This document shows positions 6,404 to 26,142 of a stretch of 26,420 nucleotides of DNA, in pieces; the stretch's first letter is position 1, and every line of letters starts with the position of its first letter. The position numbers and the translations under genes are program-made. Source of the DNA: Actinidia chinensis. Its lineage: Eukaryota; Streptophyta; Magnoliopsida; Ericales; Actinidiaceae. The stretch spans positions 1-26,420 of the forward strand of contig VIGQ01002187.1 in NCBI GenBank assembly GCA_009663005.1, in the 5' to 3' direction. The notes beneath the pieces are model-generated. The model had not been told where the DNA came from. It searched no databases and was given only the letters and a program-made list of their open reading frames with translations.

Positions 6404-6408
6404 CTGAA

Positions 6409-6419
6409 CTCTTTTCTTT
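6409..6419 (-). other. copia-B polypurine tract
   Basis: The minus strand reads AAAGAAAAGAG immediately upstream of the 3' LTR, followed by TTCAG and then the LTR start TGTCAG. Position and composition fit the plus-strand primer of an LTR retrotransposon. Confidence 0.75.
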
Positions 6420-6489
6420 ATAGATAGCAGCAACTCGTATGTATCAGTAGTCACTTATAGGTGTTGTAGTGACAGTGTGGTAAAGAATC

Positions 6490-7330
6490 AAACAGTAGAG
6501 CCTGTTGGGCTCTTGAACCCAGCCACCACCGACTGTCAGCCCATTGCCTGTCGATAAAGCGTTCAAGAGCACGATTCGGCGATGCCCCCTAGTAAAGGCG
6601 TCTGCAGGATTGTCCCGTCGCCGTTGATCCAAGCGGATTCTCTGTGGAATCTCGCGACGCTTCAATATGATTGACGCAGCGCCATAAATGTCGATATTAA
6701 GACGCTTCCCTTCGTTGTCCCAATCTTTACAAGGCACTCTACAGAGAGTAACGAGTCCTGTACTATGACTAGGGAATTGAAGGTAGCCAAGTCTTCTGTC
6801 CACCATCCTAAGGGTGTGGCAATCGCGATGCCTATATCAAGCCGTTTGAACCATGCCTAGCTCTGAAGCTAGTACGCTGCGCGTGACGCGTTTGGCATTT
6901 CGTAGAGCTGTAGTGGATCACATGCCATGGATCGTGAAGTGTTGCCGTCGTAGACTCGGTTCACGAGCATAAGGATAAAGCCTAGCATTAGCTCAGGTCC
7001 TTATTGTTTGGCAAATAAGCCGTCCACAAATACCATCAGTTGGCGTTGATTAATCTCACCAGGGGTACGTAGCGCAGACCGCGGTCGAAATATTCTCCAT
7101 CTGCCATTTTAGCGTTTGTGAGCCACCATTGATGTGCCTCGCGAAGGCTGCTGCGCTTGAGCGGCGACGGAACAAATCAAAAGACCTCTGGTTTGGCACG
7201 TTGATGCGATGTACGCTCCTCGGCACGTTGTGTCATGTCCTGTTGTCGCGATCGGGTGGACCGAGTGTCGGCACAAGCTTGATCTTTGGCTCACTTGTCC
7301 TTTCTGTCGAAGGTACGGACTGGTTCGCTG
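6490..7330 (-). pseudogene. copia-B RNase H and C-terminal pol
   Basis: Read on the minus strand, LRQKGQ lies at 7295-7312 and RGAYIAS at 7202-7222. A FVDGLFAK-like block near 7020 corresponds to the FTDGS(F/L)AN of copia-A. EGKRLNIDIYGA (about 6670-6710) and DNPADAFTRG (about 6590-6620) mark the C-terminal end. RNase H degrades the RNA strand of the cDNA hybrid. The domain is spread over all three frames with several stops. It ends about 80 bp before the polypurine tract, as expected. Confidence 0.85.
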
Positions 7331-8180
7331 GCGTCTATCGTGAGTGTACAGCCATTGAAAGTCTAACGCCAAGTCTGACGTAAGTACAGTCTTTGCTTTG
7401 ACCGAAAATGTGCTTTCTCGAGCTTTTCCTCTTCGAGTGAGAGATGCGGCGTCCTCAGCATGGAGTGTCGTCTGTTTGCATGCCGACGATGCCCGAGGCA
7501 TCTGCGTCGTCCGCTGTTCGTGATTAACAGGCATGGGTCGTCCTTAGATGTCGACATGTCCGCTCGCTTGCAGTGGGTGGCCATGATAACGTGTCCACCA
7601 TGACTCCTGCTTCCCCGCGATCCCATTAGCGGGCTTGAAATCACAGGAGTAGCGTGCTTCTGGATATCGAGATACCATCTTCAGTAGGAAGATGTGCGAG
7701 TATCGTTTCTCTGAGTTCGTCTGTGCCTGTGGATCTTCCTCGTGATGTCGCGAACTCGATGCTCATTCCGCGTTGTAAGAGCCACAGGCGTGAGGCCGAA
7801 TCAGAACGCGGCTACATCGTTGGATGGTCGGGGACTCGTCCAGACGCCTCCTTGCCGTGGTCCTGGTAGCCTTGGATACCAGACGGGATTTCTGTACGGC
7901 TTAGTCGTCTTTTTCCCTGACCCACTTACTAGACGTGACTTAAGATTCGGATTCCGCTGTGTAAGCCCTCTATCGTATTGCTCAAACTTAAACCTCCACG
8001 CCTACAGATCGCTAATCTCTTTGTCCGTCAACACTTCAAAAGGTGCTCCGCTGTGGTGATTAACACTATCGCTGCCGAAAGCTTGATAGCTAGCTCTATC
8101 GGTTTCCATCTTCCTTCTTGGGGATTGTACGCCGCGCCTTAACGCTTATTCCTTTGATCCTGGAGGGGCGGCCCTCTCCT
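7330..8180 (-). pseudogene. copia-B reverse transcriptase (QTDD-type)
   Basis: The LRDIT of the conserved DITQAY block lies at about 7741-7758. DPCLLITNSG (about 7515-7545) is followed by SGIVGMQTDDT, whose MQTDDT codons are at 7464-7481. In this lineage the catalytic pair of aspartates is presented as QTDD where most copia reverse transcriptases have YVDD; both aspartates are kept here. SLEEEKLEKAHF (about 7400-7440) follows. The reading frame shifts several times between these blocks. Confidence 0.85.
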
Positions 8181-8209
8181 GCTGGTTTGCGCTGCCGGAG
8201 GTACTTCTA

Positions 8210-9120
8210 TAGGCCATGCAGCTCATCTCGCTCATCCGACGCGTGTGGCCGCATCGGGGGGTCGCTCCACAAGTGGTCTGGTCTGTAGTCTGGCTTGACA
8301 ACGTTGATCTGAATGTTGTTTGGACCAGTGACCATGTCAACAGTGACATTTGTGGCCGTCCTATACTGGCGATCTTGTCCTGGCATTCCAGCCATCGCTC
8401 TCCTCTCTCCTACTAAGATCCATTCGCTCTGGAGTGGGAGCGCGAGCATGTCTGCATTGGCTGTCCATTTTCGAGTGTTCAAGGCGTCTTGCAACTTGCG
8501 CTCTGCATTTGAAGCTTGCGCAGGGCTTTGGTTCGCCTTTTGGATAGCCTCGCCTCTGCGTTTTGATCATTTATGGATGGCGGTGACTTCTGTAGTCATG
8601 CTGTGGGTAGGCTCCAAAGACCAGCAATGTACAGGGACTAGCCCATCGGGTCCAGCAGTGTCGCTTGGAACGGCCTTTCAACAAGCCATTTGAATTATCG
8701 CCTCATCAGATTTCACTGTCATTGAGCTCTGCATGAGTATAATCCCATGCGCCGCGGTGGGGCAGAGGTGCAATGATACCTCTCTCTACCTACATACTAC
8801 CAGTGCGCTCGTAGGTACTACTTGCTGCATTACTCCCATGATCTTTGCTTCTGCACGGAACTCCTGACTCTGCGCTCCGCGAAATTGGGTGCCTGCGTGT
8901 GCGTATGAATATCTGGTGGCCTTGATACGTGGGTGTCGAGTCCAGAGCATCCGAGTTGCTTGCATGTTCTCTTGTCTGAGATAAGCGCTAAGGAACTTCG
9001 CCGCCTTTGAATGCAGTCGAAGAATCAAACTACATGTAGTACGCTTGGCTACTAAGATTACTTACGTCTACCAGTATCTCGTAGTTGAAGTAATGATCGT
9101 CCTTAAGAGGTGAATTTGAA
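8210..9120 (-). pseudogene. copia-B integrase
   Basis: On the minus strand, FLSAY (about 8980-9000), AGTQFRGAQ with EFRAEAKIMGV (about 8830-8900), and a VERYH-like block near 8770-8785 trace the catalytic core. LALPLQSEW and NVTVDMVTGPNN (about 8310-8440) trace the C-terminal part. The second catalytic aspartate, expected just before AGTQF, is missing: a base is lost near 8897 and the frame reads YAHAGT. The glutamate of the VERYH block can still be read. Confidence 0.82.
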
Positions 9121-9129
9121 TCGGCGTGG

Positions 9130-9800
9130 CGCCGACTATGGGAGCTGGCAGTGGTGACAGAATCCTCGTCCACTTCGTCAAGGGCTCTCTCTTCGAAGTC
9201 GTCATGGCCGCGTCCTCAAGAGCTTTGACTAGTCGGTCCACAGTCTGGGTGTCCAAAACGACGATGGAGCCGCCTCACTCAGCTCTGTCTCTGTCAAGAA
9301 CACTGTTGCTCTCTCTCTCTTGTTCAGATTGAACCAAGGATGTCCCATTTCCGGAGCAACAGGGATGCCTATCTTTGTTCTTGGACGAGCTCGTCTGTAG
9401 TGTTGTGAAGTAGAACCTTTTATAGGCCTGTCCATATCTGCAAGACATAGTAAGAATGGCGTAGGCGCGCCCTCGAGCATTCGAAGTTGAATCCTCCAAT
9501 CTCTGTAGAGACCTGTGCCTGTATACCAATTGACGCTGTACCTCGACCTTGCCAAATTTGATTAGATGCCTTGCCTGCTGTAAGATGTATCTATCTTGAC
9601 GTTGGGTCCTCCCGTGCCAGGCGCGATGTACTACTGCTCCTGCCAACCGTAGATACGTTGGCGGCGCCTGTAAATCAGGTAAGGATTCCTTGGTACACAG
9701 ATCGGTGTAGCGGGTCCTAAGCAGGAACTGTGACGCTGGTGCTGACGGCGCGTCTCGGCTTGTATATGTCTCGCCAGAGATGTGAATCAAGAACGCCTGG
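9130..9800 (-). pseudogene. copia-B protease and pre-integrase region
   Basis: RRFGHP is encoded at 9246-9263, the histidine end of the pre-integrase zinc finger, identical to copia-A. Upstream of it, HPWFNLNKRERATVFLTETE (about 9290-9350) is the usual lead-in. A degenerate protease lies at about 9480-9720, with LPDLQAPPTYLRLAG (about 9640-9690) as its best block. The protease DTG motif is not readable: the expected position near 9700-9715 reads LLRTRYTDLC. Confidence 0.75.
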
Positions 9801-11000
9801 TCTGCAAAGGCAATTGTTCCTTGAAGAACTGGTGTTCAAAGTATTGCTGATCGCCGCGCCGTCGTCATTGTCGCTATCCTCGCATCTTTCTCTTTCTCTC
9901 TCTCTCTCTCCAGCCTCTCTTGGTTGTCTGGCTGGCGTGCTCACGCCTTCGTCTCTGCCAGTGTACTGAAAAATCCTCATGTGCTGGTGCCCCTGCAAGT
10001 ACAGCGTAGAGAAGAACTGCGCGCGTGCCTGCTTTGCGCCGCGTCTGGTGTGGTTTTTGTCGACACATCACCTTCCTCCTTCTGGCATCAAAGGCATTTT
10101 TCTTCCAGCGGTTGGCTTAAATCCCTGAAATCCGCGTTCATTGGCTTCTGTTGCCCTTCTTGGCCTCTTCCAGTCCCACTATCTGAATCTGGCTTCCGCC
10201 TCAAAAACCCCCTCGGTTCTTCCATTGCTTTGTAGCGCGGTCCAAGTAGTATTGGTCCTCAGTGACCATCTGTGCTGGTGTTGTCGTGCGAGGTGTGTCC
10301 CCTCAACTGCGGACCGTAGGTCTGAGAAGAGCCCTCACAGATTGTGGCTGGCTTGACATGCCATCCCCTCCAGTTCTGGAACTCCTCGCAGGCGTTGATA
10401 ACGGTAGTTGCGAAGGGCGGTCTTCACCTTCAAAGTTTCTTACCAAGCGCGCGTTGGCATAGCTGCCGCTTATCAAGCAGGAGCTGCCAAACCTCGTGTA
10501 GGCCTTTCTCTGGTTCTCTGGGCGCGGGCGGGAAATGTTGTAGTCGTCCAGTCCGTTTGTAGTTGTGTAGTAATGCTGGGGTGGAAGTCGTGGTCGAGTG
10601 GTTTCGTGTTGCCATATACGCATACAGCAAAGCTGTCCCTCTATTTCTACGACCGTTGGAAAATGTCTCCGCACGTTACGTAAGGATACGGGAAAACACT
10701 GCATGGAAACTGGCTCCTCCGGGATGTCACTTGCCAGCAAATGCTAAAAAGATCTTGATCTTATCGTCTAGAGATCGTACGCTTCACGTATACTTGTTGC
10801 GTTGTCCCAGGAGCTTGAGAGAACTGCGTGATTTGTTGCGTCGAGGCGGTCGTTGCGGGACCATCGTGGCGGTGGTAGCGTCTTGTATGGATCGTGGGCG
10901 GGTCAGGGTGGTCGAGCAGGTACACGGTTATAGGCTGCTGTGGTGAAAGGTGTTAACCTCGCGTAGGTTGGGGATACGGAGTCAATTCGCGAACGTAGTT
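9801..11000 (-). pseudogene. copia-B gag remnant
   Basis: This is the gag position of the minus-strand element. A DQYYLDRATK-like stretch (about 10215-10245) matches the region after the gag zinc knuckle in this type of element, but the CCHC cysteines are not recognisable. Further upstream, about 10300-10800 gives mostly open but unremarkable sequence in overlapping frames. A TC microsatellite (9886-9912) interrupts the region between gag and protease. Assignment rests mainly on position. Confidence 0.5.
9886..9912. repeat. TC microsatellite
   Basis: A pyrimidine run of mostly TC units lies inside copia-B between the gag and protease regions. It probably expanded after the element died. Confidence 0.9.
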
Positions 11001-12178
11001 CCCAAGCGGTCGTGTCGTGTCTGCAGGCGATGTTGGGCTCCTGAGGTTGAGAGTGGCTTCGGATCCGTATGTTCTTCTCTAACCCGTAGCCGCTCGCTGC
11101 TTCGGATTGTTTTGGTTGTAGCCGTGGCTGCAGCTGCTATGATCCTGCAGGGATGCTTGCAACGGCTGGCTGCGTTTGCGGCCTGCGTCTGACGGCGCTG
11201 CGTATGAGGCGTGGATCGTCTGCGACGGTCGTCGTTCGGTACAGGAGCTACTGGCGGCGTTCTGCTGGCGTTGGTACGCTTTCGATCGGTGGTCGAAACG
11301 TCATCGCTTGAAACTCAGCAGGATCCCATTCGGGGATGTCATCCATGGCCAGTGTCTTGTATAGGGAGGCGGCGACTTTCGCGCGGTTGTACCAGGTAGA
11401 TTCTCTGTTATCGCAGTACGGTTTGAGAGACTTAAGAGTGTTTCGATCAACTTAAGGAATAAGCTCGTGTCCCTCCCTCAAAGTCTATTATAATCGTCGA
11501 AGAGTTGATCGTCCCATTACCATTGTCGGTGTAATCGGGATCATCTTGCAAACCCAGGTTGTTAGAGGGTAGGCGTCTGGTCTCTCGGCCAGGCACATCC
11601 CATAGGGATTGTATCGATGACCTTCAATGCTACTGTGTATGGACAGTCTTCATGAGTTCCTCTGCGGTATATTTCCGCCCATAGGGAAGCAGGGTTTGCC
11701 GTTCGCTTACGCTGTGTGTTTGGGGGCCTTTTTTCGGGGGGGAAGGGGGCGTTAAGCCGTTGCTCTTTGAACAGACTTATCGATATTGCTAGAGTCGCTC
11801 TCGTTCGTCGCCATCGTGCCGGAGGGGATCGAAGGCGTGGTCTTGAGTTGTCTAGCTGGATTATGTTTCCAGCGCGTTGTTGTAGGATCGGATCGTCCGG
11901 GGCGGGACGCTAGTACGGTTGGCTTGACAACTCTGTAGTTGTCCCGAGACTTCTCCGCGGTAGGGATTCCAAAACAGTCTGCCTTGTGCGGTGCTGACGC
12001 GCTGTGATCGAGCTTCGGCCTGAAGCAAGCAGCTGTTAGAGGGAGGTTTTTTGATCGTGTGCGTTATCTCTGCTGATCTGTTCTTAGCACAATTGTTCGT
12101 CCGAGGTTCTCGCGTCGGGCTGTCAACAGTTCTGTCTCTTCACATGCTGTTCTGTGATCGCCTAAGCAATACTGTCAG
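11001..12178 (-). other. 5' part of copia-B, gag start and leader, unresolved
   Basis: Between the recognisable gag remnant and the 5' LTR there are about 1.2 kb without any motif I can name on either strand. By position it should hold the gag N-terminus and the untranslated leader with the primer-binding site. A stretch near 11720-11760 contains runs of G. No host gene is evident. Confidence 0.4.
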
Positions 12179-12379
12179 TGTGGGAAGGCTCACTCGTGAA
12201 AGGATAATTAACGATAGATATGAAGCATTCTGTACGATGTGGGTTGACTGTTCTTGTTGCACGTGAGGGTGCTAAGGACGTATACATGATCTGCGATGAG
12301 TAGAGCCACGTCGGATGCGAGTCGGCTCGTTTGGCAGCGCTGGAGGCGCCGACGTACCTATGATACTCATGGCCGACCA
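12179..12379 (-). repeat. 5' LTR of copia-B
   Basis: Direct repeat of 6207-6403, starting TGTGGGAAGGCTCACT and ending CCGACCA on the plus strand. It keeps AGCATTCTGTACGATGTGGG, GTATACATGATCTGCGATGA and CGAGTCGGCTCG (12318-12329). Differences from the 3' LTR are scattered substitutions and small indels, indicating an old insertion. I found no primer-binding site I can name in the adjacent bases below 12179. Confidence 0.9.
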
Positions 12380-12757
12380 TAAAGCCCCTTAAGACCTTTT
12401 ATAGAATAGGAGCCTCTAAAACCACCTGAACCCTAATAAATAGCCGTAGAAGAATAAGAAGAGAAAAGATCAGAGAATAGTAAAAATATATTAATCTACT
12501 CTTAAGTATTGCGTTAATAGATTAGGCATAATCTAGATCCTATCTAGTATAAGGCCCTCTAACTTTATAGGATCCCCTTAATAAGTTATAAGAGTTTTAT
12601 AAAAAAGTATCTGAGACTAGCTAGGCCCCCTATAAGCGCTTATAAGTAGATTAAAGCTTAAGAGAAAGGTTGTCGGATATAGATTACCTAGAGGATCATT
12701 AAGTTAAAACTAGGAGCATGAAGAGGAGGTTACTATATAGTATACTAAAAAAAAAAA
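12380..12757. other. RIP-like TA-rich tract ending in A11
   Basis: The tract is very rich in TA, TAAG and CTATA, with CA and TG nearly absent, the pattern left by C-to-T changes at CpA (RIP). It starts immediately after the copia-B LTR and ends with eleven A (12747-12757), where composition changes abruptly to GC-rich. No gene is readable. Confidence 0.6.
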
Positions 12758-13139
12758 TCTCCCTTAGACATCCACATCCGACGTCCCGCCCTTACTCCGA
12801 ACGCTCAATCGCCGCCCCTACCCCGGACCACCTCCGCGCCCGATCGTGAGAGGTCACTCTCAGACTCTACACCCCACCCGTTACTTCCCCTTTTCTTCGT
12901 ATGGCGCTGAACCACGCCCCCACCCGCGCGTCACTCGCGTCTCAAAGGTGGCGACCGGTGTCCAGAACAGAGACATGCTCAAGAATCTGTCCTAGGAGAT
13001 GATGCTGTAGTCAACAACTCTAGAGCACCTAGGTCTTTTCCTAGCCCGAGTCACTGGACGCTTAGATTAGCGACTGGCGCCGTAAAACCTCGCTAACTGC
13101 CGCCTATTGTTATCGCCGTTCGAAAGTTCCTGTACGCCT
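12758..13139. other. GC-rich island between RIP-like tracts, unassigned
   Basis: Composition is C-rich on the plus strand (CCGCCCCTACCCC and similar) and lacks the TA bias of both flanks. Short frames exist in all directions, but none shows a known motif. It may be a small insertion younger than the RIP of its surroundings, or a piece that escaped mutation. Confidence 0.4.
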
Positions 13140-13910
13140 CTAGTTTTTAAAGTTAGGACTATTAAAATCCTTACTAAACGTAAATTAGAATCTAGAGTAA
13201 TAAGTAAAGCCACTATTAGCCTAGTACTAGATACTTACTAGGTTACACGAACCCTTCTGATTTAGTGCAGTACGCGCACTTGCTTGGATTCCCCGCGAGG
13301 CAAAACCGATACTCGATAATATGAGCCTCTCGCCATGGCCTTGGCCGCCCGAAGGGGCACATTGCGGGGGCCGCCGGCAGCGCTCCGAAAGGGCAAGCGC
13401 CACAGGCATTAGAGAGAGAGTGTGTGTTGTGTGTTTGAGGTGAGATAAGATCTATACAACAGGAGTAACTAAAAAAACCTATAGAGTAAAAGAAACGTAC
13501 ATATATTATTATTATAAAGGATAATAAAGAAAGAAGGTTAAGATAAAGAGAAGAATATAGAAGTAATAAAGTTTGCAAGATATTAATACTTAACGCCGCT
13601 TACCTTAAACATTCAAACGCCGGCCTTACCTTAATATTTCACGTACCTTACTTAGATTTTAGCTAAATACTAGTCGTTAAGCATTAAACATATATAGATT
13701 AATATATAATAATTAAGATAACCTCATACTAAAATAATATTAAATAAATAGGGACATTTGTTTTCGATAAAGGGGGGAATATAACGAGGCTACCTCCCAT
13801 ATTATAGTATAGCTAAGACTAGACGTTAGAGTTAACTTTAAGAGCTTTAGACCTATCCTAACTTAGGTCTAACTAGCCCCCCTAGCCTATATATATTTAA
13901 GCCATCCATA
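13140..13910. other. RIP-like TA-rich tract with a small GC-rich island
   Basis: 13140-13250 and 13435-13905 are TA-rich with few CA/TG. Between them, 13255-13410 is GC-rich; read on the minus strand it gives ACPFGALPAAPAMCPFGRP, a short doubled CPFG motif. An AG/TG microsatellite follows (13411-13437). I recognise no gene. Confidence 0.45.
13411..13437. repeat. AG/TG microsatellite
   Basis: An AG run continues directly into TG-rich sequence at the edge of the small GC-rich island. Confidence 0.85.
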
Positions 13911-13916
13911 GTTTGC

Positions 13917-14052
13917 TGGAGGAATGGCCCCAGGGCATCCTTCCACGAACCGTCGGACGCTAATTGGCTGGCCCGGAAATTAAGGGGGGCATTCCTCCAC
14001 GCTTAGCATAGGGGCATTTCTCCATAAACGCGTCCGAAACGCTCATTGGCTG
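13917..14052 (+). promoter_or_regulatory. cluster of GGGCATTCCTCCA repeats with inverted CCAAT boxes
   Basis: The 13-mer GGGCAT-(T/C)-C-TCCA occurs three times in direct orientation (13933-13945, 13987-13999, 14012-14024) and once inverted (13917-13931, TGGAGGAATGGCCCC). Two of the units are followed by a related block CGTC(C/G)GA...GCT-ATTGGCTG (13950-13970 and 14031-14052), so a larger ~80 bp unit is repeated. ATTGG, the inverted CCAAT box, is at 13963-13967 and 14045-14049. It lies upstream of the recombinase/RecQ relic and could be its promoter or an element terminus. Confidence 0.5.
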
Positions 14053-16289
14053 TAGCGCTAACCCTTAAATTAGCGCGTCTGCTTTCCGCTAGCTTATACG
14101 CTAGCGAGCATCTAGCGTTTTGTAGCGATTTTACGTACCAAGAGCGGTAGGTGGCTTACGCAAAAAACCTACTATACTCTATCTACCCTATCTCTTTCTA
14201 CCTCAATATTCATTTCTTATGTTCTTCATCTCGCATCCTATAGCGTGTGAATCTGTCTAGAGGCATAAGCATGCTGTAGAAAACCTTGACGAGCATCTAA
14301 ACCGTGACAATTCGTCTGCCAATAGCCCGGAGGCAGCACTGCTAGACAAATACGGAGCTACTCTCTCTGCCTACCACAGCAGTCCCTTTGCCAGCGCCCA
14401 AAGCGGCGCCTATTGGCTGCGCAGGCCCAGCGCAAGAGGCGTTCCTGCGGCCCAAGGCAAAAGCAGCAGCACAGCAGCCACCACAGCACCAACAGGCAGC
14501 TGTATCCGTGGCAGGAAGGGGCGCAGTAGCAGTAGAGCAGAGAGGGAAGCTATAGCAGTAGCTGTAGCTATATCACGATAAGTCCAAGGACGATGCGAAA
14601 GATACGGAATCAGCAGCACCGTGTCAAGCTCTCACGCTGGTCTACTCCCTAAGCGCCTCCTACGCTGAGACGCTGCCCAGCTATGGAGCCTGTCAAGGTG
14701 AGACTTCGTTCCGCAGAGCGACGCTACGTCCGCGACTTGTCGTGCAAGAGGACGAGCACAAAACCAGCGGCTGGACCAAACAGCGCGGGCGACCAGCAGC
14801 AGAGCAAACGAGCAAGCAGGGCGACAGCAGAGGGCGGGACAAGCAGCAAGAGTGGGAACAGCAGAGCGTTTCCAGCAGAGGCTTGCGCTTCCTCTCCTCT
14901 AGCCTAGAGGCCCTAGAGCGCGGCGGACAGCGAGGCGACCATCGCACGCCGAGGAGGCCTCGGTCAAGGACCGTAACGGCTTGGTTCAAGAGGAACGCGG
15001 ATGGGAACGAGCCCCGCAGGCCTACCCAGACTGGAAGAGTTACTTGCGTACGGATCGCTGCCATGCCAACGACGAGCCGCAGCTGCAGCGCGTTTGTACA
15101 GCTAGAGAGGCGTGGTCGATGGAGGCAGTACAAGGGGATTAGCACGCTACTCTTGAGACGTCCGCTGGCTACGCAGTCAAAGGCTCAGGAGCTGATTGTA
15201 CGACCCTTCAGCCGTATGCAGAACAAGGCGAGTCAGCTACGTGCAGCGGGCTCTGGGAGCGGCTACTCTGCTACTGCTCCGTATGGGGCTATTGTCTGGA
15301 GCAAGACTGCGCCAGAGTGTGCGAGGGGGGAGAGAGAGCCAGCCGCTGCCAAGCAGCACCAGCACCCGCCGCACCCGCAGCACCACAGCACCAGCCGTAC
15401 CCGCACTGGCCAGCATTGGCTGTATCTTCCCATGGCATGCAGGCAGGAAGCTGGCAGACAGGAGGGCTTGGCAGTAGTCTCCTCTCACGAAGCTCTACCA
15501 CAACCGCCAAGCAGCGTTACGTAAATGCTACCGCCTTATCCCAAGCTTCATCTGCCAGGACGACTGCCACCAGCCATTCAAAACAGCGCATAGGCCATTT
15601 CCTGCGGTCTTGGTGGTATCATGCAGAGACTGCCGGCTACGTGCTGAGCTCAGTTTCCTCTCTATCAGCTCACTTAATCTACTGCGTACGCGCACTCCAG
15701 TAGAGATCTTTCTCCCAGCAAGCAAGCGGGATGGCAAGGCGCTGCGGAGACACGTGGATTCTTGAGAAGCGCGCTGCATCTGGTAGATGGCTTCTACAAG
15801 CCTATGAGCGTAATGCTGAGGCGCTCTCCTACGCAAGTCATCTCTTGCGTACGCCAGGTAGTATGCTGGCAGCAAGTGTGGTGGTCTAGAGACCAGCAGA
15901 CGTACGTATTAAGGGCGGCAGTAGCACTACACAGCTAGCAGGCTGGCGAAAGGGAAGTAGCAGAGAGAGGGAATGCTCTGGGAAGAGCTACTCTGGGTGA
16001 CAGCGAAGACCAAACCTGCTCTCCACACCCAACCTGGCAGCTATCCAGGAAGATCTCTGTAAGCGCAGCGTTGGCGTATCCTTTCTATCGCTGCCCAACT
16101 GCAGGCAGGCCAAGCGTTGGTGTTGGAGAGGCTAGCAAACGTTCCAGTGCACAGCGACTTACCAAGCACCAGCGCGACCAGCGCGACCACCATCCAGCCA
16201 TACCATTGAGCATGGCATCCAGTGGAGAAGAGCGCGCGTATACGGCCAGTATATCAGGCGAGAGTAGAGCGCTTCCTCGACCTTCTTCT

Positions 16290-16930
16290 GCTGCTGTTCA
16301 TATCACAGGTGGCCAGCCTTGCTCGTGGGCCAGAGCGCTATCCCGTACGATGGCGCACTGGCGGGCTACAGGACCCGCCAACTGTACGTGATAGCTGGGC
16401 AGGTGTATAGTACTCGCTTACCATAAGACGCAGTTCAATGGGATCGGCCCTAAGGTAATCGCCCCGGGTGCCTGCCCAGAGCCGTAGGGCAGGCTGATGA
16501 CTTGCGTACCTGCTGTACATACGGCCGTGCGCGCGCTGCTCCTTAGTAGCCTAGGCAAGCTGGCTACGCTGCTGGAAGTGACTACCTCTGGGTGGATGAG
16601 CATGGCCATGGGATACCAGTCGACTCACGCGTATCATGACGAGCCGAGACGGCCTGACGGCGACGAGGGCACACGACTGACCCTGGCTGACTACCGCCAG
16701 GTAGCTTGTTGGATGGGCGTGGAAAGTAGCGGTGTGAGCGGTTTGCTACTTGGCTACAACCAATCAGCGCAAGTGTACAGCGTACCACGCAGAGGGAGGC
16801 GAGAGGGTAGCGCTCGGATGAGGATGGTGAGGATCCAGTGAGCTGCAGAATGGCCGATGATACAGCAATCGGCCTAGTGGCATACGCTGTGAAGGCAGGA
16901 TATCGTCAGGGCCTCAGTGTGGCGCTCCAT
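16290..16930 (+). other. tyrosine-recombinase-like signature in the N-terminal half of the RecQ relic
   Basis: Four blocks have the order and spacing of a tyrosine recombinase catalytic domain. Block I is TGGQP followed, after a one-base frameshift, by ARGPE (arginine codon 16324-16326), resembling the TGxRxxEL box. A lysine lies in YHKTQ (codon 16425-16427). YRQVA (arginine 16695-16697) resembles LRH, with Q for H. LQNG, then an interrupted histidine codon (16855-16858), leads to DTAIGLVAY, with the tyrosine at 16883-16885, nine residues after the histidine as in GHSS...Y boxes. From the first arginine to the tyrosine is about 186 codons. This is my reading; it was not tested by profile search. 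Confidence 0.5.
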
Positions 16931-17304
16931 TGAGTGTTTCGACACTCAGCTCTGATGGCATGCCTCCTTGGCTGCCTAGACCTCTAGCACCTCCAGTACC
17001 TCAGCATCTCCAGCGTCTATCCTAGGCTAGAGCGGGACCGGACAAAGAGGGCACTAGCAGAAAGAACGAAGCAAGATTTCTTTGAAGAAAGCGAGAAAGC
17101 AGCGGAGGCTGGAGCTAGAGCCGAGCCCGAGCCGAGGCAGAGAGACCAAGCGGTACACCGTGACCGGGCGAGGAAAGATAGAGAGAGGGTTACGGACGCA
17201 GTCCGTCAAGGTACTGTTGTATACCCGATGGCCAGCCAGTCACGTACAAAATCACCAGACCAGAAAACGCGCTATTGGACGCGGTTGTACAAGGAAGTGT
17301 CAAT

Positions 17305-18520
17305 GCTAGTAGGCTGCCTACAGGTGGAGGGAAGACCTTAGTACCGTACCGCAGCTGCGCAGTACGTGACAACCGGGAGCCTAGCTACCCCAAGTCACTC
17401 TGCTAGTCCTGCCTTTCGCGCGCTCATTGAAGATATGCTTGTTACGTTCCTTAGCCACGCCAGGATCAGCGCAGTGAGTGGGCGCCAGGTGTTGTACCAG
17501 GAGAGCTTGCAGAGCCGTAGGAGATTACCCAGGTGACATATCGTGAGGCCGGACCCGATGGGAGCAGAGTGGCGAGTTTCTCTCGTACGTGCATCTGTAG
17601 ACCCCACCAGCAGATCCTCCGACGCGTAAGCCCGTAGAGTGATTGATGAAGTTGCACACAGCCATTACAGCCGACTCATGGCGGCCCAAGCGTACTCGGC
17701 TAAAAAGGACGTACAGCTGCGCAGCCAGCTTGTACTTCTAAAGCTACGCTCCCTCCCTCACAGGTAGGGCAGCTGTTTAAGGATGCTCCTTGTACCTACA
17801 GCAATGTGTACGTGCAAGATGTTACGCAGAGTCCAGGGCGCCACAGTACATTTCCTGTCTGCCAGAGAAGTGAGCTGAGAGAGAGAGCTACTAAGCAAGT
17901 CAGCAGATGATAGAAGGAAGGCTCAGTCTTGTACTGTAATACAAGTAGAGGGTAGGCAGGTAGCTGCAGGAGTGACTGTAAGGGGCGTTGTATATGCCGT
18001 ACGAAGCAGATCTGTGCGCAGCTTGCTACCGCATTGGCTGCCACGCTTACCACGACGGGGGAGCATCTGTACCGAGATACTGAGGAGTGGCGACAGGCAG
18101 GTGGCTGAATGTGTGTCATCTGATCTTGGTGTAGGGTCCGATATACATGGGTACAATTTTACGATAAACGTAGAGCAGCCATGGAGCATGGTAGACTGTG
18201 TACAGGCGAGTGGGCGAGCGCGATGAGAGGAGGCAGGCAGTGATACTGGTATAGTTACAGCAGCTGGCAGCGGCCAGCAGCAGCAGCAGGCAGCCAGCGT
18301 AGCTTCTCTTCCGTCTCAGAGCAGAAGTAGACGAGGGAAGAGGAGGGAAGAATTAGAGATTAAGAGGATAGTAAGGTATGGAGGCGGTGTATACAAGCGC
18401 CTGGCTGCCGCGTGTAGCTATGAGTAGAATATATGGATGGCTTACAGGTCAACTGTAGCGAGCTGGCAGAGATGATAGCTCTTACGGCGTAGTAGCATGT
18501 GATTACTTGCGATGGTCAGG
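17305..18520 (+). other. RecQ helicase core motifs of the relic
   Basis: Motif I is LPTGGGKTL at 17314-17340. Motif Ia is FRALIEDM at 17414-17437. Motif II is VIDE (17639-17650), then HTAITADSWRP (17655-17687) in a shifted frame, so the DExH box is split by an extra base. Motif III is LVLLK followed by TLPPS with one base missing (about 17731-17760). Motif IV is VVYA and then RTKQICAQL in a second frame (17986-18030). Motifs V and VI are LGVGSDIHG (18125-18151) and EQPWSMVDCVQASGRAR (to 18223), all in one frame. A CDYLRW-like end near 18495-18515 may be the zinc-binding tail. At least six frame changes make it non-functional. Confidence 0.85.
18275..18289 (+). repeat. CAG microsatellite
   Basis: Five CAG units lie just after helicase motif VI. 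They probably encoded or expanded a glutamine stretch. Confidence 0.85.
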
Positions 18521-18536
18521 CCCTAACCATATGAGG

Positions 18537-18673
18537 GAGGCGAAATCCGGCCTCTAACAATATAGGAGGCGAATCAGGCCTGATTCGTGCCCGAAACTAG
18601 GCTTTAGCGTTAGGGTTTCCGCCCGCATCCGGTAAGACGATCACCCCCGATTGCGATTTTAACACCCCCGATT
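18537..18673. repeat. palindrome and short direct repeats downstream of the RecQ relic
   Basis: GGAGGCGAA occurs at 18537-18545 and 18565-18573. The second copy runs into a perfect 18 bp palindrome, CGAATCAGGCCTGATTCG, at 18570-18587. The first copy forms a GAGGC/GCCTC stem (18538-18554). CACCCCCGATT is repeated at 18642-18652 and 18663-18673. Together they make a compact repeat-dense block at the end of the relic gene, possibly a terminator or element end. Confidence 0.65.
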
Positions 18674-18778
18674 CATGCACATAGGATCTATAGGACTGAC
18701 TTCTATACAACTTATCGCGCTAAACTTCGTAGTCTATATATAGAGTTTAGCTACTAGCAGGCACGTTTGTGTAGTAAG

Positions 18779-18796
18779 TTAGGGTTTAGGGTTTAG
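18779..18796 (+). repeat. interstitial telomere-like repeat
   Basis: The sequence is TTAGGGTTTAGGGTTTAG: two TTAGGG units and a partial third, separated by an extra T. An isolated TTAGGG also occurs at 18610-18615. The fungal telomere unit is usually TTAGGG. The run is short, so chance cannot be excluded, but it lies directly downstream of a telomere-linked helicase relic. Confidence 0.6.
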
Positions 18797-20802
18797 AGCT
18801 ACCGTGTCCGTGCGAGCAATGCGCGGATTGCCGCAAGGCGCCGAGGCGTCTTATGCACTATACTCAACCACACATTAGCTAAACGCCACAATGACGCTGG
18901 AGACGCCTTTTACAGGAGTGTGCTACTTATAAAGATATTTGCAGAAGATATCCCTTGGGACGCAGATTATCAAAAAAGCCTGAGTTGTGCGATCACGTTG
19001 ACGCGAAGATAACCGAACGCGAAGAGACCGCAATCCGCGGGAAAGAGCAGGCAAGCACAACAGAAACTCACCCAGCAACAAGAGGGAGGAGCTTGTAGGA
19101 TATAGAATAGCTTACTGCTCGTCAGTCCCCCCTCCATAGAGAGATGATGCAAAATTTCGCGGCAGCAGTCGCCCAGATACCAGTGAGCGAGAGGCTGGGT
19201 GGGTTACCCCTTCATCAACGGACGCTATCCCATCTCATCTCTCAATACTAACGTGTATGGACGCCAACCGCCACCCAACCGCACAACGCTGATTCATAAC
19301 TAAGTATGTTTATACTTCAACCTGCTGGTGAGCGCAAGATCCCGAATATAAGATTGACAGCTGCCCACCAATACAATAGGACGAGAGAAGGGCTTCTGAT
19401 TGGAGTCACCACTAGGACCAACACGTGTTCAGTAGGAGGATGTGGGAGAAAGGGGAGGTCAAAGCGTCACTTCAAGAGGGCAATCGTGCCTGGATTACGG
19501 GTGGCCTGCGTGTGTGGTGATGGATCAGCTCGGCGGCCAGGTTCCTATACGAGTCTGCAACAGAACCATCCAATCAAGCTGGGGAGAGGAAATACAGCCA
19601 GGGGTACACTCTGTTATTCGGTCTTCATCTCCGACAGGCGGGGACCAACAACAGCATAGGCCTTGCATTGGCTTTTGAACAGGTGTTGATCGCTTCACCA
19701 AGACCAAGGGCGGAGAAGTGGGGCCTCCATGATCCTTTGAGGCCCTGTATCCACGTAACGATGGACTTCATTAACTACTGTGATCGGAACAAGATTATTC
19801 CTGTTATCCTTCCTCCTATTAACCCACACGCTGCAGCCGCCTGATGTAGTGAGTTAAAACCTTCTTCAACTGCGTACTCTCAAAAGGAGCTACAACACAC
19901 CTTCACACTGGCCCGGGCTATCTGTATCAAGAAAAGCCGACTTCTCCACCTGTTTGGAAAGCCCGGACGAGCACGTTTACTTCAGGGTTAATACTCAAGT
20001 CTTTGAGTCTACGGGTATAGCACCCCTCCAGCCCCAACGTTATCCTCCACCGCTTTGCTGAGCCTTCTCCTAAGGCCTTGATGGCAGCGGAGAGCTCTGC
20101 TTCAACCTATTCTGGCAAGGATTGGCTCAACATAGAGACTCTACTAGCACAAAGTGCTAAGGATCAGGGCAGTAAGGAGCTAAGGAAAAGGAAGATAGCC
20201 GCTCATGCACACACTCTCAATCAAAGATCAATATCCACAGTGAGGTAGAGGCTGTTCAAGAGGTGGTTAGACTCAGAAAGCCGCAAAAGAACAAGAGCAA
20301 AGCTCTTGACTTTCAGGAACCTTGATGAACATCAAGGTAAAGACTCTAGTCTATTCTCTCATAGGAGTAGATAAAGCACGCCAGTATGAGCAAGTAAAAC
20401 AACCGGAAGAAGAAAGAAGGCAGAAGAGGTTAGAGAAGCAGAAGAGGTTAGAAAAGAGAGTGGCTGAACCAGGCACGCCACAAGCAATAAGGAGAGAGTG
20501 ACTCAGGGAGAAGCGTGAGAAGGCGGTTGAGGGAAAGGAAAGAGCGAACAGGCCAAAGCCAAGAAGGCAAGAAGAAGTGCAGAAACGCAGGCTGAAAGAG
20601 AGCGTCGAAAACAAAGCCCGCGACGCACAAGAGCGAAGCTCTAAAATTGTCTTCCCCAAGCGGCAATAAGAAGACTTCAAAAGATCTGCCGTCGAGAAGA
20701 GCCGGCGCGTAGAGTAGTGTGGGCGCGCGTGTCACCAACGCTGCGACGCCTCCTGCCTAACTCGCACTCCATTACCACCGCAGCGCGCATGCCAAACTCT
20801 AT
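18797..20802 (+). mobile_element. pogo-2: second Fot1/Pot2-type element, inactive
   Basis: Contains a full-length but broken pogo transposase (18891-20720). The element ends are not firmly resolved. A candidate boundary is TAGAG at 18794-18798 against the complement of the same pentamer at 20797-20801, giving about 2.0 kb with TA at both edges, but the inverted repeats inside are weak. On that reading the element begins in the telomere-like repeat and ends 1 bp before the copia-C LTR. Confidence 0.75.
18891..20720 (+). pseudogene. pogo-2 transposase
   Basis: The likely start is ATGACGCTGGAGACGCC at 18891. The CENP-B-like DNA-binding half shows QQKLTQQQEG (about 19058-19090, in frame pieces) and MMQNFAAAVAQIPVSERL (19144-19194). 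The first DDE aspartate is the GAC at 19380-19382, next to EKGF. The middle shows CVCGDGSA and a YSQGYTLLFGLHL block (about 19510-19640). The second aspartate is lost: near 19735-19745 the LILDGHGSH motif is corrupted, though VTMDFINYCDRNKII follows cleanly. The third is kept in TLQPPDV (GAT at 19843-19845). HTGPGYLY and TFTSGLILKSFESTGIAPL (about 19905-20025) follow. The C-terminus is a basic, coiled-coil-like tail ending at KIVFPKRQ. There is no zinc knuckle, unlike pogo-1. Confidence 0.87.
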
Positions 20803-21012
20803 TGTGGGCGGAGGACAGAACGGAGAGGACTCGTTGATTATTCTATGGAGTAGAGATGTGTAAGTGCTATATACATGAGGTAACGTCAGTATAGGATGTA
20901 GATGACATCAGCGAAGGTATTTTTTTTTTCGAAAGGGGTAGAAGATACTAGAAGATATGATGAGGGAGTATCGGGCCGCCACACGGACATCTAACCGTGT
21001 TGGCTGACACAC
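20803..21012 (-). repeat. 3' LTR of copia-C
   Basis: Shares GGCGGAGGACAGAA, GGAGAGGACTCGTTGATTAT, AGAAGATACTAGAAGAT, ATCGGGCCG and TCTAACCGTGTTGGCTGACA with 26160-26352. A run of ten T (20920-20929) is present here and absent from the other copy. Confidence 0.92.
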
Positions 21013-21114
21013 CCCAGCTTGAGTGATGATAAGTAACGAAAGCTGAAAAGATAGCAACTCTAGTACTTCCTCGATAGTGGTATCTGCATATGAAGGTCGA
21101 TGTACCACAACCTA

Positions 21115-21960
21115 ATTAGGCTAAGTTAGGGTGACTGGACATCCTCTGAATTCGTTCGGGTCTGCAGCTTTGATGAGATCTCACTAAAGTCCTAATGTCG
21201 TACAAAATGAGCGTGTTCTGACGAGAAGAAAGATCTTCGTGAGCCGGTCGCTGGCATTTCTGCAGTGGGTTTCCACTCAATCTGCAGTCTGCCTTATGAT
21301 ATCTCCTGGCGTATCCACTGGTGGTGCACACGTCTACGTGCTTGAGCTCGTCGACGCTTATCAATTTGTCTTCGTTGGCAATTGGGACCAGTCTGCTGGT
21401 TGTCACATCCAGAGTGATGGTGTACATTTCTGGATCGTCGAATTGCCTGGAGCAGCGTTGCCACCAGTCCATCTCTGAGCCTGCTAGTGAGAGAGAAGCA
21501 GCTCAGCTTCCCGTAGTTGACTTTCGTGACTGATCGTTGAACTGTCGCTTTCCAGTTAGATAGGTAATCCATAAAGCTTGAAGAGATAGCCTGAGAGCTT
21601 CGACTGTCCCTCCGGCTCATCTGCAAAAAGCCGCATCCGATGCGCCATAGATAACGGTTCTAGCTCCTGTTGCCGCTTCAGTGTTGAAATGCTCGTAATG
21701 CCATTTGGGATATCCGCTTACGCTCGAATAGCGAGATTTCGTTGTGCCGATTAGGTATCGCCAGACATGCTTGGATGCTACAGTGTTTTCTGCCCTGGTT
21801 TTGGAGATGAGTGCAGTATTGATATGCCGTGCAACGTCAACGCGTTGATGTTGAGATGTATGCCAATGAGCCAACTCAGCTGCTTGCATATCTTGTGTGT
21901 CCGAGCGCGTTTGGGTTCTTCCGTACGGCATAAGATAGTTTTCCTTCAATGGCACGTCTG
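21115..21960 (-). pseudogene. copia-C RNase H
   Basis: KHVWRYLIGTTKSRY (about 21735-21785) and YGASDAAF (about 21625-21650, first catalytic aspartate) open the region. FMDYLSNWKA (about 21545-21575), REAELLLS (about 21490-21515, catalytic glutamate), MDWWQRC (21452-21472), CDNQQT (about 21390-21407, next aspartate), and a LKHVDV / HHQWIRQEI overlap of two frames (about 21300-21345) continue it. All blocks fit a copia RNase H and its C-terminal extension. Confidence 0.9.
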
Positions 21961-22640
21961 GATACGTCTATTAATCTTGAGGTCGAATTTTGTCGTATCT
22001 TGTTGATGACTGAGTCCTGGATTCGGTAATGGAGTTCCGTGACTCCTCTCGTATCACTCGAATCCCTAGAACCATTTAAGCTGCCTAGCTCTCGAATATC
22101 GGATGTTCTTTAACAGCTGTTTTTGTTTAAACACTTGATAAGCGTTTATGTTGAGTGGATGCACGAGGACACGATATCATCCACGTAAAAGAACACAATT
22201 AAGTGATCGCTGGCGTGAACAGACTGGAGCTCCTAGTACTGGCTTTAAGCCAAGTTTTCTCAAGGTTGAAGACAGCTCCTGGTCTCAGAGCAATGGGCTT
22301 CTTTTGCATGAGTGCTCGTTTGCAGCTCAAGAAGCTCACCAGACCCATAGTGAAGGCCTGCTGGGCGTACGGCAGTCATCTTTTGTGGTAAGCTTTGGCG
22401 TTGAGAAAAGCGTTCAACGCATCAAATTGAAACATCTCAAGTCCAAATGCGCCTGCAATTGCGATAAGAGATCGTAGGAACTTTTATCGCTAGTGTGGCT
22501 GCATATTGTCTCCCCACGGTTCTTGAAGGTCACCTCGTACGAAAGGCGTGGCTTGTACTTTACAAATATCCATCTTCGTCAAACTTTTACGTGAAGACCC
22601 ACATCAGAGGCAGTATCTCGGCGTCTGCTGTAGTCGAAGT
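21960..22640 (-). pseudogene. copia-C reverse transcriptase (YVDD-type)
   Basis: LMWVFT (22590-22607) and KFDEDGYL (22563-22586) open the domain, interrupted by one stop between them. ATLAIK follows near 22455-22475. The catalytic block is LIVFFYVDDIVSS, with YVDD at 22176-22187, fully intact. Frames change between blocks. The domain copies element RNA into cDNA. Confidence 0.9.
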
Positions 22641-23479
22641 TGCCTCCGTGCGTTTGAACATCTTTTGCCCAGCGCTATCAGGTTCTTTTCGGGCTGCCTG
22701 GTAATTCCGCGCTCAACGGATGTTTCCTTGAGGTCTTTCCAGCGTTTGGCGGTGGGGAAGCTTGAATCGCGATGGAGCTTATCTTCGGTAGTTCTCCAGC
22801 GAGTTTTGATGACAGTGTCGGATTTGCTGCTGCTGCAAAGCTGCATAGTAATGTGGCTAGGGCTTGATTTGGGGCGCTTCCTAGCTCTTTTGGCCGGATA
22901 TGATGTTGCTGCTGCTAACCGCGGGTCAGCTTTTTCGGGTGCGGGTTGTTTCTCCCGCGATCTGGATATAGTTGTTCGAGCTCGCCCATCTCTTGGTAGA
23001 GTTTGAGGGTGCGTCTTGAGGCTGCTATAGTGTCTTCTCTTGCTGAGGTACTCTAACATGGATACTGAGCTATCGTTTATCTTGGATAGACTGTTGTTGT
23101 CTTCTTGGTCTGATTGCATCTCGTGCAGGCAACTGCCGCTTGCAAACGGTTGTTCTGGAGTTCTGCTCTTCTGCAGTTTTGCCTGATCGTCCTCCGCATC
23201 CTGCGCATCCATGTGGGTGATATCTTCGTCTCCCTCTGCTGAGGCGGAGCTTGTATTGTCGCGAATGATGGTTCTGGCTCGGTAGATAGTTTAAATGCGT
23301 ATGAGGCTCGTCACTCCTTCTGAATCTCGTGTTGCACTGCGTGTCGCCCGTGGACTGCATTGGCGCGATTAAGATCGCTTAGAGTAACTTGTGCTCTGCG
23401 GGTAAGTATACTAGAGTCTCGATGTCTTCTTGTTATTATAGCCTCTTTTTCTACGACTAAGTATGCTAAAGAGGGACTA
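22640..23479 (-). pseudogene. copia-C integrase-RT linker
   Basis: A long open frame of 202 codons (23212 to 22604) rich in K, R, S, P and Q, with ATSYPAKRARKRPKSS and later AKRWKDLKE, a tail that leads directly into the reverse transcriptase. Low-complexity linkers of this kind separate integrase and reverse transcriptase in fungal copia polyproteins. It is not an independent gene, although it is the longest open stretch of the element. Confidence 0.7.
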
Positions 23480-24179
23480 TGCCTTAAAAATACGTTCGTA
23501 CCGCCGAATTACTTGGTCTTCTTAGGTACCATATGCGAAAATGTTGTGGGGTCATATCCCAACCAAGTATCAATAAAGGTACGAGGATGCAAGCTTGTCA
23601 GCCTTCTTCAACTTCTGTTGTGAGGAACTGTAAGCTTGGCATCCATCGGAGCAAAAGAGCAATTAAAGGCGGCTTGCGTGGACAATTCGTTTGGCGTCTT
23701 CCAGTCGATGGCTTTCGTTTGGAGCGTCCCCGAAACGTTGGTGATTCGAGGATGCCAGTGATGGATAGCTAATTGACAGTTTGACTTCGGTAGCCCTGCC
23801 TTGAATTCGAAAGCGCTCTTGCTTTTGTGATGATGATATGGCCTGCCTTTTCTGCTTGGCCAAGCTGCTCAGCAGTGCAGGGGCTCGTAGCTCGATCTTG
23901 AAGCCTGCTTGCTTCGCGTCTCATAGAGCTCAAGGCCCATAGCCTCGCCTCACCATCAATCTTGAGTACGGCTACAATATAACCATTACGACGTTGGATG
24001 TTGTTAATAATGCTTTTAGAGCTGGCACTACTATTGCAGTGTCTTGTTGGTGAGTGTGGCACCTCAGGCACTTCGAGTACTAACACACAGCGTTGTTGTG
24101 CAAGTATCGGTCCCGTGTAGCAAGTCTCCCAGTTGGGATGGTTGTACAAGGTAACTATAATCCGATAGAACGGCCTTGA
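23480..24179 (-). pseudogene. copia-C integrase
   Basis: One frame (24149 down to 23769) carries VAVLKIDGE, with its aspartate codon at 23955-23957, and AEQLGQAEKAGHIIITKARA, whose second glutamate codon is at 23850-23852. There are 34 residues between them, as expected for a DD35E integrase. A GYDPTTF / FRIW block near 23530-23560 marks the end of the domain. The first aspartate is not identified. Two of three catalytic residues are therefore present in a single open frame. Confidence 0.8.
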
Positions 24180-24340
24180 TAAGCCGGATCTCAGGTTGGC
24201 GCCTGCCTCACTGAGCTGTCAAATTTCGCTTCAATGCAGGTAATCGATTCCTGCAGCGAGTGCTGAGCATCGGCTCTAGGCTATACCCGCAATCTCTTTC
24301 AAATGATCGAATCGCTTCTTTGCTGCATGAAGGCAAAAAC
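24180..24340 (-). pseudogene. copia-C pre-integrase segment
   Basis: On the minus strand, YSLEPMLSTRC followed by ALKRNLTAQ and then RRQPEI in a shifted frame fits the cysteine end and exit of the pre-integrase zinc finger. The histidine end near 24330 is not cleanly readable. Confidence 0.65.
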
Positions 24341-24399
24341 AGCTTATGAGCGTCCACGTATAAGATGCTGCAATCGGGACGTCGATCTTCCTCGAGGTT

Positions 24400-24870
24400 T
24401 GTAAGACTCGTCGTCGAGGCTGTAGCCAAAGGACTTAGCGTTGGTCGGTCGTTGTCGTCGCATCGATAATCCAGTGGCCATCCTTGTGCTGTAGTGAGCA
24501 GAGGACATTTGACGGATGATTCTGATATAAACACTCGTCCGGAGTCAAACCTGAACGCCTTACTCTCCGCGCCATTTGAGAGGCTTACAACGTTTGTCTG
24601 AAGAAAACCTTCTACAAGGCCAACTTCTGTGAGTTGAATCTGACCTACGCCCTGAGGCAGGGTTAGCATTGAGGAAAGGAACCTTTCCCCAGGACTGTTA
24701 TAGGCACTCCGATACTCCCGCAAAGGGAATCTTGTTGATCTGCTTGGCGCGTCTCTGTCCATTCCAAAACGAGTGGAGTTTGCAGACATGGATGTTGGAG
24801 CCAGGGTCAAGGATCAATCGGTTGATAATCGTAGGAGAGCATTCTGCTGTACCTGCTGCGGCTGTGTAAC
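24400..24870 (-). pseudogene. copia-C protease
   Basis: An aspartic protease that would process the polyprotein. The active-site block reads RLILDPGSNIHVC with DPGSN at 24794-24808: the aspartate and glycine are present, with P in place of the usual S or T. It is followed in another frame by QIQLTEVGLVEGFLQTNVVS and FRFDSGRVF (about 24520-24650), the downstream strand pattern of copia proteases. Confidence 0.8.
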
Positions 24871-24949
24871 GGAGAATGAAACTGTGGGCAGCAAAAGCTC
24901 TGGCTAGCTGTGCAATCTCTCTCGTCATCCAGCTTCCAATTTCGTTTAT

Positions 24950-25813
24950 GCTCGCAATCTTCGTGTTATCTTGGTAAGATATTCCTAATTCTCTTCGACT
25001 TGCGATGGGCTTTTAAGGTCGGCCAATCTAGCTTCTACGTCCTTATTTGGTCGAAGTTCTCGGTCTTGTGAGGAGTGATTGGGAAAAGAGGGTACCCAGC
25101 AGTCCTGTGTACCAGTGTTTGCCTCAGCAAATACACCTTGGTGTCCTTTCTGATAGCTCTCGCATGACGATGTTCCTCTTCTTCGTTTGAACTCTGCTTT
25201 TCCGCAAGCGTTTAGACTCGCAAAAGGTCCCGAGTGATGATGTAGAAGGACTCGTTCTTGGTGATACATCCTAAACTGCGCAATATAATCCGCTAGTGAT
25301 TGGATCTAATTTATTCTTCCAGTGGTTTCTTTCAAGATAAGGTCTTGATGCGGCTGAGGCGCCCACTCTGGTGCGACCGCTCTCACGACTGTCAAAAATC
25401 GTCCTTGAGCGCGATTCCCTGTCGTCTCGGGAAGGTCCTGCTTTCCCTGCATTGGTTCGTAACGTGAATCCATTCGTCACCATTGTTCGAGGTTGCGGCC
25501 TCGAGGCTTCCCCCCCTTCTTGCAGAGCGCGGGTAACTTTGGTTCCAGCTCTCTGTTTGCGTACAGCTGCTGTCGGTGCAAGCTGCTGCTTGGAGCGCGA
25601 TTAGCGATCATAAATCTCGTCCTTTCCGTTGATTTAGGTAGAGGTGCGAGTTGCGATCGTTCGGGGCTTATCTCCATAAGCAGCTCGCCTTCTTTTCGCT
25701 TCATGTTCGCATATTCTGTTCTCTCGACTCTCCATCGTGCAGGAATCGCTGTACAATTGCCTGCTGTGCCTGCCGTCCAGCTGGCTATCGTGGTTGCCTC
25801 CAGCCCTACATCG
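24950..25813 (-). pseudogene. copia-C gag, middle and C-terminal part
   Basis: The region continues the gag reading in changing frames. The block around 24985-25269 contains NACGKAEF and later QDCWVPSF, possible remains of a C-rich zinc knuckle, followed by NKDVEARLADLK, the style of the gag-protease junction in this lineage. The knuckle spacing is not clean. Confidence 0.55.
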
Positions 25814-25993
25814 CTAGGCAAGTTTTTGTGGGTTCGATAGCTTCGGTAGCTCATCCTTCGGCTTGAGATGTCGCCTACTTCCGGTAGCGTCTACGACGGC
25901 CTTTTCTCGTCGTAGCGGAACCATGACTCCCATCTGCTGTTTTATCCAGTACGAACTGTCCACGCGTGTGACTCCTTCGTCGCTAAGCGCCAT
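25814..25993 (-). pseudogene. copia-C gag, N-terminal part
   Basis: Starting at ATG (25993 reading down), the frame gives 59 codons beginning MALSDEGVTRVDSSYWIKQQ and stops at TAG (25814-25816). The sequence continues in a shifted frame with DVGLEATTIASWTAGTAG and WRVERTEYANMKRKEGE, so the stop is a break, not the real end. The start lies about 150 bp inside the primer-binding site, a normal leader length for a copia element. No signal peptide or membrane segment is seen. Confidence 0.55.
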
Positions 25994-26142
25994 CGTGATC
26001 TATCGATCGTATTACCAGTCGGCTCTTAATGCTGCAAGGGCTTCGACAAGGTGTGTAAATAGCGATGCCGACGTTTACGGCTATCGAAAATCGGGGTTTA
26101 TTTAGTGCACATAATGGAACGCAGTCGTTGTCAATTGCAGTG

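Follow-up and report, generated by a model that had tools for sequence, protein, structure and literature searches.

Telomere-linked RecQ helicase genes, such as the UTAS genes of Ustilago and the recQ genes of Metarhizium, are the closest described relatives of the gene analysed here. In the available portions of the respective papers, OrsD is associated with recQ or UTAS genes (PMC11457142, PMC10532341), and subtelomeric RecQ genes of Mycosphaerella graminicola are reported in 13 copies, 7 of them full length, on nine chromosomes (PMC4522978). In telomerase-negative Ustilago, the telomere-linked helicase gene UMAG_12032 is up in both mutants according to the text available (PMC10532341), a rise that fits a role at chromosome ends and says nothing about a recombinase. 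The stretch examined here (the window) is the entire contig VIGQ01002187.1 (26,420 nucleotides, denoted C1461) of the Actinidia chinensis assembly GCA_009663005.1. It contains a gene that is likely to be one error-rich copy of a fungal gene of the telomere-linked helicase type, combining OrsD, a very divergent tyrosine recombinase and RecQ, and possibly spread by subtelomeric exchange or copying. A recombinase active site conserved within the helicase protein itself would offer a direct, testable reason for the multiplication of such genes at the ends of fungal chromosomes.

The gene occupies positions 14218-18519 of the forward strand, on which all its features below also lie. It was delineated by a collinear, frameshift-tolerant alignment of the window DNA to a profile of 30 full-length intact relatives; this type of alignment was used because no single frame contains the gene, the pieces of which are spread over three frames that are broken throughout by stops and frameshifts. 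The lax full-length score is 372.5 compared with a maximum of 189.4 among 24 shuffles. Individual parts were compared with 60 dinucleotide shuffles of positions 14000-18700. The strict score of the RecQ core (17314-18220) is 47.6 (shuffle maximum 25.0), and that of the tyrosine-recombinase-like catalytic domain (16220-16890) is 37.9 (shuffle mean 18.3, maximum 22.2; 18.4 on the reverse strand). Of the individual recombinase pieces, 16252-16350 scores best. The OrsD and N-terminal part, possible remains of which lie at 14563-15025, is only marginal (25.2 versus shuffle maxima of 25.6 and, in a second shuffle set, 26.4), and the middle part of the gene is not significant (19.1 versus 23.9). Reverse-strand scores of the gene parts are 17.5-20.2, and the four shuffle-tested parts stay within their shuffle ranges throughout the rest of the window. 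Searches that do not tolerate frameshifts detect the helicase end only, namely hmmsearch of the six frames (18086-18289, E-value 1.6e-7) and tblastn with 60 relatives (best 60 of 146 rows).

A preliminary description of this DNA had identified a RecQ core by the motifs LPTGGGKTL, GVGSDIHG and PWSMVDCVQASGRA, all of which lie where it placed them. The Walker A motif LPTGGGKTL is at 17314-17340, followed by VIDE (17633-17650), an ATLPPS block from 17723, GCHAYHD (18036-18056) and the GVGSDI and QASGRA motifs (18125-18220), with GVGSDIHG starting at 18128 and PWSMVDCVQASGRA ending at 18220. The four blocks that it took for recombinase boxes were also recovered in place, and the score of the respective part is beyond chance. 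Box I, VHITGGQP..ARGPE (16296-16335), contains an arginine with a glutamate three residues further on, the counterparts of R173 and E176 of Cre; its two halves, HITGGQP (from 16299) and RGPE (16324-16335), differ by one frame. The YHK motif (16419-16427) holds the position of the catalytic lysine, and box II, YRQVA (16692-16706), the second arginine. These are followed by ELQNG-Arg (16840-16857), with an arginine codon at 16855-16857 in the place of the histidine, and by AYA (16880-16888), with the nucleophile tyrosine position at 16883-16885.

Intact relatives of the gene were collected with a family segment as the bait because the window's own pieces matched no protein. This search yielded 4949 candidates, 653 of them at E<=1, and the best 120 of these proteins were taken; a second search with a distant member, P0109, yielded 211 among 1054 candidates, with 45 new proteins among the best 120. 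Source names of the relatives include Alternaria, Pyrenophora, Plenodomus, Paraphaeosphaeria, Didymella, Neofusicoccum, Coniosporium, Aspergillus thermomutatus and Hortaea as well as the lichen fungi Polycauliona, Teloschistes and Brigantiaea. Two of the proteins, P0025 and P0077, are labelled telomere-linked helicase 1 by NCBI. In a Pfam scan of 27 members, OrsD was detected in 24, and DEAD and Helicase_C in 26 each; 44 families were matched in total, those outside the best 25 each in at most 1 of the 27 members. The RecQ helicase core was confirmed by comparing a profile of 76 relatives with the PDB (RecQ5, E-value 5.1e-55). By computation on intact relatives, a single polypeptide contains the OrsD zinc fingers, a domain of predicted recombinase fold with a conserved active site and a RecQ motor. 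A full-length relative, P0054, is deposited as a sequence of the plant Tanacetum cinerariifolium and is probably a fungal contaminant sequence in a plant record. P0082 of Aspergillus thermomutatus contains OrsD and two recombinase-like stretches, whereas its domain listing has no helicase; on visual inspection, the tyrosine is missing from the first of these stretches.

Conservation of the putative active site was assessed in 169 segments from 165 proteins (residue numbers are those of P0002). Among the readable segments, R689 and E692 are each kept in 165 of 165, K724 in 166 of 166, R812 in 163 of 165, H856 in 164 of 165 and Y865 in 163 of 164. The complete set of R689, K724, R812, H856 and Y865 is present in 158 of 162 segments, the exceptions being P0065, P0067, P0084 and P0095 (7 of the 169 lack full coverage). 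A random draw of five R, K, H or Y columns that are all at least 98% conserved has a chance of 0.001 among the 77 columns of the domain and 0.004 among the 48 columns of the catalytic part only. The spacings between the five residues are 35, 88, 44 and 9, the third of which spans an acidic insert, and the order and spacing of R, K, R, H/W and Y typical of the tyrosine recombinase superfamily are found in the relatives. The predicted fold of the catalytic domain is that of a tyrosine recombinase: the best-scoring structures in the fold comparison belong to tyrosine recombinases or topoisomerases, and Xer and Cre rank higher than topoisomerases in both structure models. Both the structural likeness of the N-terminal half and the conservation of the five positions in intact homologues, on which the preliminary description had staked its proposal, are thus borne out.

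Several observations weigh against this assignment. The comparison of profiles that the preliminary description had called for gave nothing: the hhalign probability is 0.1% against a profile of 81 XerD sequences and ranges from 0.1 to 1.0% for Cre, lambda Int, P2 Int and FimB, compared with 64.6-98.8% for XerD against the latter four under the same settings. A profile search of PDB sequences retrieved no recombinase chain, a PHROGs search with 6 proteins retrieved no integrase, and Phage_integrase is not among the best 25 of the 44 Pfam families in the 27 members. No Foldseek match has an E-value as low as 0.001. The histidine and the tyrosine fall in a poorly modelled stretch (model residues 331-372), and their active-site placement is not seen in the model because the predicted local distance difference test (pLDDT) score there is below 50. 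The histidine of the box II HxxR motif is not kept, the 169 segments having alanine in 92, glutamine in 53 and histidine in 2. In the window itself, only one recombinase piece is significant on its own, and the piece at 16668-16803, with a score of 22.3, stays under the highest value (23.4) obtained from 120 shuffles. The expected set of five positions is retained there only in part, with R, K, R and Y in place and arginine instead of histidine. Finally, the first protein search, with window pieces alone, found nothing. Because the structure and residue tests were passed although the profile test failed, the domain is read as a very divergent member of the tyrosine recombinases rather than a non-member. 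That the recombinase-fold domain is real and is part of the window gene is very likely, and it is probable that the domain is catalytically active in the intact relatives.

The active residues of Cre are R173, E176, K201, H289, R292, W315 and Y324 (PMC12506042, text available in part). Judged by order and spacing, each of these except H289 has a counterpart in the family, which mostly has alanine or glutamine in the place of H289. The histidine-tyrosine spacing of 9 is the same as in Cre, and the position of Cre W315 is occupied by histidine. Xer proteins also have histidine at this position, in agreement with the XerD sequence. With Xer and Cre the family thus shares the predicted fold, the order R..E, K, R, H, Y and the H-9-Y spacing; it differs from them in the lack of detectable profile similarity and of the HxxR histidine, the acidic insert before the conserved histidine and the fusion with OrsD and RecQ. 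CryptonF elements resemble the family as fungal recombinase genes with possible self-spreading; in the accessible text, they contain a GCR1_C domain and most of the fungal ones have 6-bp terminal direct repeats (PMC3212892). Starship captains (DUF3435) are likewise tyrosine recombinases of Pezizomycotina in which the box II histidine is replaced: the Sanctuary captain has a tyrosine three residues before the second arginine (Y424/R427; PMC12506042, as far as available), so that the HxxR place is variable among known recombinases too. The family differs from the captains in having alanine or glutamine where Sanctuary has tyrosine and in the fused RecQ helicase. Membership in the Crypton or Starship groups, to which the preliminary description had looked, is not supported, given that neither GCR1_C nor DUF3435 is among the same best 25 Pfam families.

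With telomere-linked helicases, the family has in common the RecQ core, OrsD in the relatives, repeated copies and nearby telomere hexamers; the difference is the recombinase domain, which is not mentioned in the consulted portions of the published accounts. The available text of PMC3212892 describes Cryptons and their retired derivatives and does not contain the word helicase; Academ, a different transposon, is described with a RecQ helicase (PMC3627910, in part); and in the accessible part of PMC10799480, RecQ and tyrosine recombinase are named in the references only. No description of a tyrosine recombinase in telomere-linked helicases is present in the portions available of these three papers or of PMC4522978, PMC11457142 and PMC10532341. 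A fusion of a recombinase with a telomere-linked helicase (OrsD-RecQ) was not found in the literature searched either, that is, in the best-ranked titles and abstract openings, with most subscription papers and bioRxiv preprints outside the coverage.

DNA of the gene was found in at least two contigs of the assembly, the window and C1325 (13,942 bases). The stretch shared with C1325 according to blastn (13913-20109, forward strand; approximately 6.2 kb) comprises the gene itself, preceded by a leader of about 0.3 kb and followed by a 3' flank of about 1.6 kb. It has a sharp 5' edge at 13913, TTGCTGGAGGAATGGCC, and no 3' terminus matching this edge was identified. Positions 4162-8422 of C1325 match 13913-18146 of the window with 79.8% identity, and 8429-10026 match 18529-20109 with 79.1%; positions 18147-18528 of the window have no match in this first C1325 copy. 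A second, more distant family gene follows in the same direction at 10985-13942 of C1325, in tandem and cut by the contig end; its recombinase part (12340-12823) scores 63.5 and its RecQ part (13139-13644) 40.9, values that have no shuffle baseline. The window and C1325 together contain three family genes, of which the C1325 pair is arranged head to tail. Repeat analysis shows that the gene in the window is followed by a 3' repeat (18516-18802, forward strand) with a minisatellite at 18516-18581 and telomere-like units at 18779-18793. The corresponding repeat of about 280 bases is present 3' of the gene both in the window (18523-18802) and in the first C1325 copy (8451-8708), and a third copy (10078-10332) sits ahead of the second C1325 gene. 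All three repeat copies contain two TTAGGG-type units each, with no chromosome end seen in either contig; the window has 4 occurrences of TTAGGGTT versus 0.57 expected. The tandem genes and the hexamer repeat agree with tandem subtelomeric units and, together with the number of genes on the two contigs, provide indirect evidence of spreading. An AT-rich island with a guanine-cytosine (GC) content of 41% (13001-14000) adjoins the 5' edge of the gene.

The state of the window copy can be judged from its comparison with the first C1325 copy. The two are separated by 411 mismatches and by 333 gap openings, of which 254 span a single base; transitions make up 25% of the mismatches, and A/C or G/T differences 51%. 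The 3' flank shows the same pattern (158 mismatches and 110 gap openings; 27% transitions, 52% A/C or G/T). Within the window, one pair of long terminal repeats (LTRs) has 14 gaps and 10 mismatches, each of the latter being A/C or G/T, and the other has 17 mismatches (10 A/C or G/T, 4 transitions) and 11 gaps. For comparison, transitions account for 48-66% and A/C plus G/T for 19-27% of the mismatches in six pairs of bacterial xerD loci used as controls; these pairs are uninformative on gaps because they are mostly coding. Confusions of A with C and of G with T are typical of one single-molecule read platform. The broken frames are therefore probably, for the most part, uncorrected single-molecule long-read errors, which casts doubt on the term decayed in the preliminary description. 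Repeat-induced point mutation would yield mainly transitions, unlike the 25% observed. A true pseudogene, mutated rather than misread, would also have stops and frameshifts all through, and the arginine at the histidine position, probably shared by the first C1325 copy, is in its favour; this alternative appears unlikely given the gap-rich, transition-poor difference pattern, the contrasting xerD controls and the bias in both LTR pairs. Because read error is inferred, the broken frames, and perhaps the arginine, are not readable as inactivation, and the arginine may be a real change in the subfamily of the window and the first C1325 copy.

The role of the recombinase domain allows several explanations. 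One is that it is a retired fold that only binds DNA, as in the proteins domesticated from Cryptons, with RecQ doing the work. The missing profile similarity to recombinases, the loss of the HxxR histidine and the arginine at the histidine position in the window and probably in the first C1325 copy would all be expected of such a fold. Retention of the complete five-residue set in nearly all segments is in contrast to the Crypton-derived DUF3504 proteins, every one of which has lost the tyrosine and the second arginine according to the text available (PMC3212892), and this explanation is improbable. Slightly more improbable is a partner of RecQ similar to topoisomerase IB, which would help to unwind DNA or to dissolve intermediates of recombination at chromosome ends by nicking and swivelling the DNA, a functional analogue of RecQ-Top3 pairs without site-specific integration; topoisomerases are among the top fold matches, but Xer and Cre outrank them in both models and the GH..9..Y spacing resembles that of recombinases. 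A merely coincidental set of motifs, in accord with the failure of sequence-only methods, can be set aside as highly improbable in view of the fold matches and of the near invariance and correct spacing of the predicted residues.

For the favoured active recombinase, the following mechanism can be envisaged. Y865 would attack DNA to form a 3'-phosphotyrosine, assisted by the two arginines, the lysine and the histidine; the zinc fingers and helical parts would pick the site, and the RecQ motor would unwind or branch-migrate the junction. The most likely outcome would be that subtelomeric units are exchanged or copied between chromosome ends, whereby the gene itself spreads. Because the active-site residues are almost always kept in the relatives, the conserved site suggests that these genes may aid their own spread or rearrange chromosome ends. 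That the gene spreads its own copies is a serious possibility, to which we give somewhat less than even weight. More tentative is the proposal that OrsD-RecQ telomere-linked helicases of fungi are a new class of self-spreading chromosome-end elements, in which a single site-binding, recombinase and helicase protein integrates or exchanges its own unit at hexamer-marked subtelomeric repeats. A conserved recombinase active site in these proteins would also add a tyrosine recombinase fused to a helicase, in which no profile similarity to the known recombinases compared here can be detected.

With respect to the origin of the DNA, the assembly has 638,422,350 bases in 1499 contigs, and the GC content of the window (51.4%) and of C1325 (52.9%) is far above the 31.7-42.6% of 12 readable samples, one per contig (12 of 1499 contigs; the first sampled contig has 19.75 Mb). 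Because of this difference, both contigs are probably fungal contaminants inside a lower-GC, plant- or animal-like assembly of 638 Mb. The remainder of the window includes two LTR-type elements. No Pfam domain was detected at E<=0.1 in the X-read minus-strand frames of either (6251-12306 for the one upstream of the gene). The downstream element (20806-26349) is bounded by direct repeats at 20806-21009 and 26164-26349 that are 82.7% identical with gaps, and 98% identical over the first 43 nucleotides. The upstream element (6217-12371) has repeats at 6217-6395 and 12188-12371 (83%) and is preceded by a short inverted pair, 4336-4387 and 6122-6172, with 90.6% identity.

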